Assembly (NCBI GenBank): GCA_945872085.1
Contig: CAMBYG010000002.1
Coordinates: 1-64,000, forward strand
Source of the DNA: Chitinophaga pinensis
Lineage (GTDB): Bacteria; Bacteroidota; Bacteroidia; Chitinophagales; Chitinophagaceae
DNA: 64,000 bases
Reading direction: 5' to 3'
Both the position numbers and the translations under genes were made by a program. Within the stretch, counting starts at the first letter, position 1. Each line of letters opens with the position of its first letter. Shown here one piece after another: positions 48,425 to 62,270 of the stretch. The notes under the pieces were generated by a model. The model did not search any database, was not told where the DNA came from, and was given only the letters and a program-made list of their open reading frames with translations.

Positions 48425-49549
48425 ATGGCAGGCATTTATATTCACATCCCTTTTTGTAAAAAAGCATGCAATTATTGCAACTTTCACTTTTCTACTTCGC
48501 TTGCCTCAAAAAGCCATTTAATAGAAGCTATAAAAGAAGAACTACGTTTACAAGCCTCCTATTTGCAAAATCATGCTATAGATACCATCTACTTTGGTGG
48601 CGGCACACCTTCTTTATTGAGCGCAGAAGAACTACAATCGATTTTCGCAAGTATAGAACGCTATTATTCCATAAATGAGCTTAAAGAATTTACATTAGAA
48701 GCTAATCCAGATGATTTAGATGCTAATTATTTAAATGCATTACAAAACACGTCAGTAAATCGATTAAGCATCGGTGTTCAGTCTTTCAAAGAGGCCGATT
48801 TACTATTTATGAATCGAGCACATTCCATACAACAGGTTGATTATGCCTTAAAATGCGCCCAAGACAAAGGATTTACTAATATTAGTATTGATCTCATTTA
48901 TGGCACCCCTAATTTGAGTATGAAAGAATGGGAACAACATTTAAATACGATGCTAACTTATGAAATACCCCACTTTTCATCCTATGGATTAACCGTAGAA
49001 CCTAAAACAACATTAGCTCATCAGATTAAAACAAAGCAATTACCTGCATTAAATCCGGATGAGGCAGCACAACAATTTTTGCTTTTAATAGATTGGGCAA
49101 AGGAAAACAATTTTGACCATTATGAAATATCCAATTTCGGAAAACCTGGCGCCCACGCTATTCACAATACTAATTATTGGAAAGGGATTCCCTATCTAGG
49201 CATTGGCCCATCGGCTCATAGCTTTAACCATAAATCTAGACAATGGAATATAGCAAACAACCAAGTGTATATTAAATCTATTCTACAAGACCAAACCATT
49301 CCTGCTACTGAGGAAGAGCTTTCTCTCGCAGATCAAGTCAATGAATATGTCATGACTTCATTAAGAACGATGTGGGGCTGCGATCTTGACAAAATAAAAA
49401 ACACTTGGCATACAACATTAGATACGGTTATTATTGAAAAGTATATACAACAACAGTTACTTACACAACATCAACAAACAATCTTTCTTTCTAAGCAAGG
49501 CAAACTTTTTGCAGATGCTATTGCTGCCGATTTATTTATAGTCTCATGA
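48425..49549 (+). CDS. hemW: Radical SAM heme chaperone HemW
   Basis: HemW is a radical SAM protein related to oxygen-independent coproporphyrinogen oxidase (HemN) and is thought to deliver heme. The 374-residue protein starts IYIHIPFCKKACNYCNF with the cluster cysteines Cys11, Cys15 and Cys18. It also has TIYFGGGTPSLL, LSIGVQSF, NISIDLIYGTPN and a C-terminal HemN domain (ISNFGKPGAHAIHN, LGIGPSAHSF, YVMTSLRT). It lacks the extra N-terminal residues of true HemN and is short, favouring HemW. The stop overlaps the next start as ATGA. Confidence 0.92.
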   Translation: MAGIYIHIPFCKKACNYCNFHFSTSLASKSHLIEAIKEELRLQASYLQNHAIDTIYFGGGTPSLLSAEELQSIFASIERYYSINELKEFTLEANPDDLDANYLNALQNTSVNRLSIGVQSFKEADLLFMNRAHSIQQVDYALKCAQDKGFTNISIDLIYGTPNLSMKEWEQHLNTMLTYEIPHFSSYGLTVEPKTTLAHQIKTKQLPALNPDEAAQQFLLLIDWAKENNFDHYEISNFGKPGAHAIHNTNYWKGIPYLGIGPSAHSFNHKSRQWNIANNQVYIKSILQDQTIPATEEELSLADQVNEYVMTSLRTMWGCDLDKIKNTWHTTLDTVIIEKYIQQQLLTQHQQTIFLSKQGKLFADAIAADLFIVS

Positions 49550-50009
49550 AATTAAAGTATTCCTTTTTATTACTAATCACCTTACTTACACTTAATGCCT
49601 GCAAACAAATTCAAGCACTTAAATGTAAGAATATCGCTCGCTTTGAGATGGTGAGTGCTTCATTAAAAGAAACACAAATCAACCTTGATTTAATTATAGA
49701 AAATCCAAATGCATTTACTGTTGATATAAAAAAATTCGTTACGTACTCTATAAAGACGATCAGCAGATTGGCACTGTTAAAAGCGATAGCCTAATGCATT
49801 TTATTGCAAATAAGGAAACTACTATAAGCTTAAATACTAGAATCGAGTCGAAAAAAGTTATTTCCAATGCTATTGATATGCTCTTAAATGCCAATCAAAC
49901 CGTTCGATTTAAGATTATTGGCACTGCTGCCATAGGCAGGGGAAATGTATTTATAACCATACCTGTTCAATACACCATAGATAAAAAATGGAATGAACTT
50001 ATGCCCTAA
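49546..50009 (+). pseudogene. LEA14-like (WHy domain) lipoprotein gene with a -1 frameshift at an A7 run
   Basis: The first frame begins with a lipoprotein signal (lipobox LNAC, Cys19) and LDLIIENPNAFTVDIKK, the start of an LEA14/WHy-type domain. It then reads out of frame to a stop at 49792-49794. The rest of the domain (IRYVLYKDDQQIGTVKSDSL, ISLNTRIESKKVI, ITIPVQYTID) is in the -1 frame, open from 49725 to 50009. The frames join exactly at ATA AAA AAA TTC (49726-49737), where one extra A or a -1 slip gives a 154-residue protein. It is coupled to hemW by an ATGA overlap. It may be a sequencing error, a recent mutation or real recoding. Confidence 0.7.
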
Positions 50010-50109: not shown

Positions 50110-50856
50110 ATGAAATTACTAGAAGGAAAAGTAGCCCTAATAACTGGCGGAAGCAGAGGAATAGGCGAAGCAATTGCCTTAAAATTTGCTGCTGAAGGAG
50201 CTCATATAGCGTTTACGTATGTTTCATCAGATGAACGTGCAAAAGCATTAGAAGAAAAACTAAGCGCTATGGGCGTGCAGGCTAAAGGATATAAATCTGA
50301 TGCAGGTGATTATGCAGCAGCAGAGACCCTAGTAAATGAAATAATGACGCAATTTGGCACCGTTGATATTTGTGTAAATAATGCAGGTATTAGCAAAGAC
50401 AACTTGCTCATGCGTATGACTCCAGAACAATGGGATGATGTGCTCCAAGCTAATCTTAAATCTATTTATAATTTAAGTAAGCAAGTAATAAAACCGATGA
50501 TGAAAAACCGCAAAGGAAGCATCATCAACATGAGCTCTATTGTGGGCATGAAAGGCAATGCAGGTCAAAGCAGCTATGCCGCTTCTAAAGCTGGTATTAT
50601 TGGCTTTACAAAATCTATAGCACAAGAATTAGGTAGCAGAAATATACGTGTAAACGCTATTGCACCTGGCTTTATTGAAACCGATATGACTCATTATTTA
50701 AAAGATGGTGGTGCAGAAAAATGGTTTGAAAAAATACCTATGGCTCGCTTTGGCAAACCAGAAGAAGTAGCTGATGTAGCCCTTTTCTTAGCCTCTGATA
50801 TGAGCAGTTATGTAAGTGGACAAGTAATAAGCGTTTGTGGCGCTATGAATACTTAA
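50110..50856 (+). CDS. fabG: 3-oxoacyl-[acyl-carrier-protein] reductase FabG
   Basis: FabG is the NADPH-dependent reductase of the fatty-acid elongation cycle, a short-chain dehydrogenase. The 248-residue protein has the cofactor motif TGGSRGIGEA, NNAG, the catalytic Ser143 (NMSSIVG), Tyr156 and Lys160 (SSYAASKAG), and IAPGFIETDM. The final segment (YVSGQVISVCGAM) is standard. It lies 17 bp before fabH on the same strand, which supports a fatty-acid synthesis role over other SDR activities. Confidence 0.92.
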   Translation: MKLLEGKVALITGGSRGIGEAIALKFAAEGAHIAFTYVSSDERAKALEEKLSAMGVQAKGYKSDAGDYAAAETLVNEIMTQFGTVDICVNNAGISKDNLLMRMTPEQWDDVLQANLKSIYNLSKQVIKPMMKNRKGSIINMSSIVGMKGNAGQSSYAASKAGIIGFTKSIAQELGSRNIRVNAIAPGFIETDMTHYLKDGGAEKWFEKIPMARFGKPEEVADVALFLASDMSSYVSGQVISVCGAMNT

Positions 50857-60197: not shown

Positions 60198-60227
60198 CAA
60201 ATATACTCATTAATTTACTGTTGGCAA
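60198..60227 (-). promoter_or_regulatory. Promoter for the DUF6089-like gene
   Basis: On the minus strand, TTG (60227-60225), a 19-bp spacer and TATATTTG (60205-60198) match the Bacteroidota consensus exactly. The -33 lies inside the 3' end of the DPP III gene. The leader would be only a few bases long. Confidence 0.5.
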
Positions 60228-62270
60228 AAAACTATACTTCTTTTTATAATCCATCATTTGTTGGAAGAAAGAAGTAGGGTAAGTAACTTTCACATCAATG
60301 ATCTTATCGCCTTCTAAAACAGGCTCTAATACAGGCTGAATAAATCCTCTGTAGGGCTTAATACCAAGTGTTGCATATCGGCTTATAATTTCTTTATGCA
60401 AAACAGGATCTACATTCACGCCATAGGTTTCCACTAAAGCAGTTGCAGCTTTATAATCACCTTCTGATTTTATACGTTGTATCTCTCTTAATAATTGCCC
60501 AAATAAGTTACGCAACTTGTTATAGTCGTTTATGCGCACATAGGTTTGATTATTTACTTTAACCAACTCTACTACGTTGTCTTGCTTTCCTTTTTCAAAT
60601 ACCCAACGCGCATTCAATTGGCGATTACGCATGTGAGCCTCTTCTAATTTTTCACCTGGTTTTAATCTTGTTAATTGCGTCATTAGCCCATTCATCATAT
60701 ATTGGTCATAACCTGCTTTACCCACCTCTTCGCTTTCTGCCACGCCAATCTCTATTAGTTTCTTATCCATGATATAATACAACCCTACAAGATCTGCACG
60801 TGCTTCTTCTAAACAAGAAGCGTAATTTTTTAATGTCTTATCTGGTGTTTCTACACCTTTGTTGATCTGACCACTTGCATGCCCAATACATTCGTGCATA
60901 TCGGTATGCAAATCGCTAGCTAATGCACCATATTTTTTCAATCTATTTTTTACCGTTTCATCGATTACAAATTCATCTAGCATACCGCTTTTGCTGCTAT
61001 TTACATTATACGAATGAATAATATTGCTTAGCGAAACAGATTTTGATCCATACTCTTTTCTAATCCAATCGGCATTTGGTAGATTTACTCCGATTGGTGT
61101 TGAAGGTGCATTGTCGCCACTTTCTACAATTGTAGTAATCGCTTTTGCGGTAATACCTTTAACTTGTTTTTTCTTATGCTCCGGCATTAATGGCGAATGA
61201 TCTTCAAACCATTGCGCTTTGGCTGCAATCGCCGCGATGCGCTTTGTTGCTTCCATGTCTTTCATAGACACCATACTTTGAAAACTTCCTTTCTTACCTA
61301 TAGCGTCAAGGTACACTTCAATAAATCCATTGACTACATCGATTCTGCTTGCTGTATCATGCACCCATTCTATACTATAATCATCAAAGGTTTTTAAATC
61401 GCCGGTTTTATAAAAATCTACAAGCAGTTGTATTGATTTTTTTTGCTGATCATTTTCTGCAACACCTGTTGCTTTTTCTAACCAATATACTATTTGAGTG
61501 ATCGATTTATCATACATACCGCCTACTTTCCAAATTCGTTCTGTGAGTTGTCCATTTTCTTTTACCACTTTACTGTTCAACCCCCAACTTGGTGCATTTC
61601 CTTTTGTATCTTTTAAATTATAAAAGGCTTCTACTTCATTCTGCGTCACTCCTTCATAATAATTATTAGCTGAGTTGGCGATATTATCTACACCAGCTCT
61701 AAGATCTACACATTTAGGCATAAAGCTAGCATCAAAAATAATAGGCTGTATTCTTTTGGTAAATGCTTCAATGTTCTCACCTTCATTAAGCGGCAAGGCA
61801 TTGCTTGGAGTTGTACTTACTAAGTTTTTGAAATAGTCGTAAGTACAAGCAGGAATGAATTTCTCATTACTATAATGATGGTAGTTGCCATTACTAAACC
61901 ATACACGTCCGCAATACGCTTCAAATTGCTTCCAAGACGTATCGTTTTTATCTCCTTTATAATTTTCATAAACTGCTTCAATGGTTTTTCTTACCAACAA
62001 ACCATATTTACTTTTTTGATCGTAAATAATATCTCTTCCGCTCAAGGCTGCTTCATATAAATAATAAGCCAATTGTTTTTGTTGCAAGGTTAATTGATTA
62101 AAACCAGGTACTTCATATCGAAGTATTTGCAAATCAGCAAAAGCCTCAGCTTCAACTACAAAGGAAGCATCATACGTTACTGCTTCGCTTTCGGAAGTCT
62201 TGCTTTTTGGATTACAAGAAATTAATAAAACAGTAGCTAGTACTAAAGTATACAAAATGTTACTTTTCAT
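60210..62270 (-). CDS. Dipeptidyl-peptidase III family (M49) metallopeptidase lipoprotein
   Basis: The 686-residue lipoprotein (lipobox LLISC, Cys19) is a zinc exopeptidase releasing dipeptides. It has the M49 hallmark HEXXGH as HECIGH (His459, Glu460, His464) and the third-ligand motif CLEEARADLVGLYY about 40 residues later. The HECxGH form is the variant known from Bacteroidota DPP III. The lipoprotein signal places it in the periplasm or on the outer membrane, unlike cytosolic eukaryotic DPP III. It is divergent from the oxygenase gene. Confidence 0.9.
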   Translation of the reverse strand: MKSNILYTLVLATVLLISCNPKSKTSESEAVTYDASFVVEAEAFADLQILRYEVPGFNQLTLQQKQLAYYLYEAALSGRDIIYDQKSKYGLLVRKTIEAVYENYKGDKNDTSWKQFEAYCGRVWFSNGNYHHYSNEKFIPACTYDYFKNLVSTTPSNALPLNEGENIEAFTKRIQPIIFDASFMPKCVDLRAGVDNIANSANNYYEGVTQNEVEAFYNLKDTKGNAPSWGLNSKVVKENGQLTERIWKVGGMYDKSITQIVYWLEKATGVAENDQQKKSIQLLVDFYKTGDLKTFDDYSIEWVHDTASRIDVVNGFIEVYLDAIGKKGSFQSMVSMKDMEATKRIAAIAAKAQWFEDHSPLMPEHKKKQVKGITAKAITTIVESGDNAPSTPIGVNLPNADWIRKEYGSKSVSLSNIIHSYNVNSSKSGMLDEFVIDETVKNRLKKYGALASDLHTDMHECIGHASGQINKGVETPDKTLKNYASCLEEARADLVGLYYIMDKKLIEIGVAESEEVGKAGYDQYMMNGLMTQLTRLKPGEKLEEAHMRNRQLNARWVFEKGKQDNVVELVKVNNQTYVRINDYNKLRNLFGQLLREIQRIKSEGDYKAATALVETYGVNVDPVLHKEIISRYATLGIKPYRGFIQPVLEPVLEGDKIIDVKVTYPTSFFQQMMDYKKKYSFLPTVN

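Follow-up and report, generated by a model that had tools for sequence, protein, structure and literature searches.

Frameshifts at homopolymers have been described in the reduced, AT-rich genomes of Blochmannia and Buchnera, in which a single indel in a poly-A tract interrupts a gene that is otherwise intact, and for Blochmannia, rescue in such tracts has been proposed (PMC3017870). In tssM (tssM1) of C. rodentium, a tract of 11 A shortly 5' of a premature stop, with the C-terminal domain in another frame, was demonstrated experimentally to rescue by transcriptional frameshifting (PMC4256274). IS elements and dnaX, in turn, undergo programmed -1 ribosomal frameshifting at A_AAA_AAA/G, with an open -1 frame beyond the heptamer. 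In E. coli, insertion of a base by RNA polymerase at an A7 run affected ~0.39% of the transcripts of one gene (PMC6260861), and heptamers lacking stimulators reached at most ~10 times a 0.055% background (PMC4066793). When transcription errors were surveyed across the genomes of E. coli and Buchnera, none was found to restore a frame (PMC5574713).

The gene considered here resembles the Blochmannia and Buchnera cases in having a single poly-A indel and an otherwise intact sequence, but those genomes carry frequent long tracts (9 or more) and several affected genes each, whereas here the run has 7 A and a single gene is affected among 137 comparisons. As in tssM1, poly-A lies shortly 5' of a premature stop and the C-terminal domain is in another frame; however, tssM1 has 11 A and was established by experiment, whereas the present case has 7 A and is a sequence observation. 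An in-phase heptamer followed by an open -1 frame is shared with the IS elements and dnaX, but, unlike in these, neither a conserved motif nor a stimulator was found, and the ancestral gene has a single frame.

The window, a stretch of 64,000 nucleotides from a Chitinophaga pinensis assembly (GCA_945872085.1, contig CAMBYG010000002.1), contains a homologous protein that is split at an A run in this assembly (Table 1). The junction, ATA AAA AAA TTC, is present where the preliminary description of this DNA had placed it. Frame 0 runs from its ATG to a TAA at 49792-49794 and has 82 codons, the length of the truncated form foreseen there, with final codons past the A7 run that are out of frame; starting at the run, the -1 frame meets no stop before 50007-50009 and encodes IRYVLYKDDQQIG...ELMP. 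Both parts match a single congener protein, residues 1-80 in one frame and residues 62-153 in the adjacent frame, as expected if they are two halves of one protein in frames 0 and -1. No second intact copy was found in the genome (1.9 Mb, 95 contigs, 94.87% complete), in which the gene's only two matches are these two halves.

Table 1. Features of the split locus and its neighbours in the window
Feature	Coordinates	Strand	Remarks
hemW (radical SAM heme chaperone), intact	48425-49549	+	TIGR00539, 266.5 bits against a cut-off of 205.4; in the ORF list; immediately 5' of the lipoprotein gene
Frame-0 part, 82-codon ORF: lipoprotein-like signal (LNAC) and N-terminal portion of a LEA_2-type protein	49546-49794	+	
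Seven-A run, A_AAA_AAA in the 0 frame	49728-49734	+	One base less than both congeners have there
-1 frame part: C-terminal 91 codons and stop, partial LEA_2 domain	49734-50009	+	
TAATG: truncated-frame stop sharing bases with a conserved Met codon that is in frame in the -1 frame	49792-49796	+	
fabG-like SDR, intact, next gene 3'	50110-50856	+	96-99% identical in congeners

The split gene is a putative LEA_2 (LEA14/WHy-type) lipoprotein gene linked to hemW. Its intact congener orthologues match LEA_2 (PF03168) with 48.2 and 41.1 bits, exceeding the Pfam cut-off of 25.4, whereas the C-terminal piece from the window alone stays just under it (23.2 bits, E 9.6e-5) and the N-terminal piece gave no LEA_2 match in the Pfam profile search. 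In all three species, a hydrophobic segment precedes a candidate lipobox Cys (LNAC, INAC and VSAC). The order hemW-LEA_2 gene-fabG is common to the window and the two congeners; at ~27 more distant loci tested, neither neighbour was detected. The hemW stop overlaps the putative start of the lipoprotein gene in an ATGA (49546-49549, +), which suggests translational coupling of the two. Searching PDB sequences with the aligned congener proteins returned no match, and no published work on LEA14 lipoproteins of Bacteroidetes was found.

In both congeners (L002 and L003), the gene is a single ORF of 154 codons in the same hemW-fabG context, the length that the preliminary description had obtained for the restored protein. 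The junction site is one base longer in each, the two sequences being GTAAAGAAAATT and GTAAAAAACTT, and an A7 or A8 run is absent from it in both. Eight A residues in close relatives had been named beforehand as the sign of a simple sequencing error; the extra base is thus there, but the eight A residues are not, and a 7-A run combined with decay of the second half, the other outcome that would have spoken against the earlier interpretation, was not seen in the relatives compared. Among the matches listed, every homologue is one open frame without stops save the gene in the window, which alone gives two overlapping matches in adjacent frames of one contig. With the congeners uninterrupted and the listed matches otherwise single-frame, sequence comparison indicates that the ancestral state is an intact gene and that the split is a derived feature limited to this assembly. 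An A7 at the same Lys-Lys position occurs in some normal single-frame homologues (L025, L029 and L037), so that the A-run originates from coding Lys-Lys; the bases of the window's TAATG are Leu/Ile-Met codons in the congeners. A homologue is present in 118 of the 147 family genomes searched; since the other 29 have none at E 0.001, the putative LEA_2 lipoprotein gene may be dispensable.

Changes in the region after the junction were polarized with the second congener as outgroup. The window lineage has 27, and 20 of these hit the third position of a codon (P 1.8e-5 against an expectation of one third). Its ratio of synonymous to nonsynonymous changes (17/10) does not differ from that of the sister lineage (11/10; Fisher P 0.56). 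A neutral share of 10% or less of the window branch is compatible with these data, a share of 20% fits marginally (0.014-0.042), and shares of at least 30% fit poorly (P at most 0.01). Because the third-position bias persists after the junction, loss of the frame must be very recent, exist solely in the assembly, or be offset by rescue; an old pseudogene was rejected on the same pattern. Coding constraint after the junction shows no decay. This absence of decay is also expected under efficient slippage rescue.

The run lies in the correct phase for a slippery heptamer, and to this extent its description as a canonical site stands; the motif is, however, not special. In the same 120-kb contig, 30 other in-frame A_AAA_AAA/A_AAA_AAG heptamers are spread over 28 of the 92 ORFs of at least 90 codons, and A7 is scarcer in the window than in shuffles (72 against ~114). 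An A-run starting at a third codon position, moreover, automatically reads A_AAA_AAA once it has lost a base. Given the comparison with shuffles and these other heptamers, the heptamer is no more than chance provides; given these other heptamers and this automatic origin, the motif alone weighs little. The case is a useful warning about perfect slippery heptamers found where two frames meet in AT-rich DNA: taken alone, such a motif says little for recoding, since it is expected by construction whenever an A-run in that phase loses a base.

No SD-like motif (GAGG, GGAG, AGGA, GGNGG or AGGKG, motif kinds as in PMC4066793) occurs in the 30 bases 5' of the run, and the RNA 3' of it folds no more stably than shuffled sequences do (z +0.30, +0.57 and +0.33 for pseudoknot-free folds). 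A conserved programmed frameshift making two functional products, for which the motif alone speaks, is contradicted by the congeners, which are single-frame and have no such motif, and by the homologues that carry A7 at the same Lys-Lys and are nevertheless single-frame. With motif and shift not conserved in the congeners and neither SD-like nor structural stimulators found, programmed frameshifting was rejected, and we consider it scarcely credible. Rescue of a functional amount of full-length protein is unlikely, whether by slippage during transcription of the run or by a -1 shift of the ribosome on it. It would fit the shift-prone class to which A_AAA_AAA belongs, the constraint that persists after the junction, and the precedents in Blochmannia (PMC3017870) and C. 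rodentium tssM (PMC4256274). However, the run has just 7 A, a length at which insertion in E. coli is as rare as noted above (PMC6260861); unstimulated heptamers stay near background (PMC4066793); SD-like motifs and stable downstream folds (z +0.3 to +0.6) were not found; and the E. coli and Buchnera survey is without any frame-restoring error (PMC5574713). Going by these published rates, a 7-A site would probably give under ~1% full-length product through unprogrammed slippage, their transfer to this bacterium being an assumption. A real, fixed seven-A allele, with low-level slippage yielding enough full-length lipoprotein to keep the gene under selection, is more doubtful still. If true, slippage in a Bacteroidota bacterium would here rescue a gene at an unusually short run.

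The reading that we favor, with a probability of roughly 0.88, is a recent one-base deletion or a consensus error in the A-run, accompanied by at most low-level unprogrammed slippage. The gene is split, its ancestral state is intact and constraint is not lost after the junction; from this we infer either recent replication slippage or a consensus error at the run, two branches that the consensus sequence by itself does not tell apart. Against this reading, replication slippage is only moderately frequent at A7, a run length at which Illumina-type assemblies seldom err. That replication slippage in the population really removed one base, recently, and left the gene truncated, as a young pseudogene or minor strain variant, has close to an even chance of being correct: the state is derived relative to two congeners, the assembly is otherwise clean and about a fifth of the family genomes are without a detected homologue, but the deletion must be young, as the substitutions show no relaxed constraint. 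An error of sequencing or assembly, the true genome having the whole gene and the consensus having dropped a base, is a real possibility, albeit short of even odds; it agrees with a second half free of decay, with a split limited to one assembly and with the position of the event in a homopolymer, where errors fall, whereas the lack of any further homopolymer frameshift in 137 protein comparisons speaks against a general tendency of the assembly to err at runs. The two options of a recent change and a homopolymer artefact, raised in the preliminary description, are thus supported, whereas the recoding offered beside them is not supported as a programmed event, given the unconserved motif, the search for stimulators that found none and the frequency of the same heptamer in other genes of this contig. 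The split is a homopolymer frameshift, and real recoding is not supported. As such it is ordinary, one-base homopolymer frameshifts being common in draft genomes, and matters little by itself.

Under the favored deletion or consensus error, replication slippage in the A-run would have dropped one base very recently, or the consensus would contain the equivalent error. After a real deletion, the expected product would be a truncated putative lipoprotein of 82 residues without most of the LEA_2 domain, the gene would be a young pseudogene or strain variant, and full-length protein would arise only via low-level non-programmed slippage. Coupled re-initiation at the TAATG is conceivable and would give a C-terminal piece of 71 residues, which is probably non-functional because it has no signal peptide.

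The 137 comparisons with congener proteins cover sampled stretches with ~156 kb of aligned coding sequence, a few genes being queried from both congeners and the split gene being counted twice; only the LEA_2 gene is split, as detected with the proteins of either congener. ORFs of the contig contain 84 A/T runs of 7-9. A single split among these comparisons argues against homopolymer errors of a systematic kind and against tolerance of many frameshifts, and neither genome-wide homopolymer errors nor widespread frameshift tolerance was seen in them; one isolated consensus error is still compatible with this result.

A peptidase M49 (dipeptidyl peptidase III-like) gene in the window (60210-62270, -) is intact, with 686 codons. 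In congener G002 (locus L006, contig C8 40916-42504), ~190 middle codons of its counterpart are absent and the ends are in different frames; the gene looks broken in that congener and not in the window. Outside the window, positions 108484-109299 of G000 contig C2 match G002 C8 88710-89111 with both ends in one frame, ~520 bases lying between the matched parts as against ~34 codons in the congener; the extra bases may be an insertion, a gap-fill or a sign of two genes.
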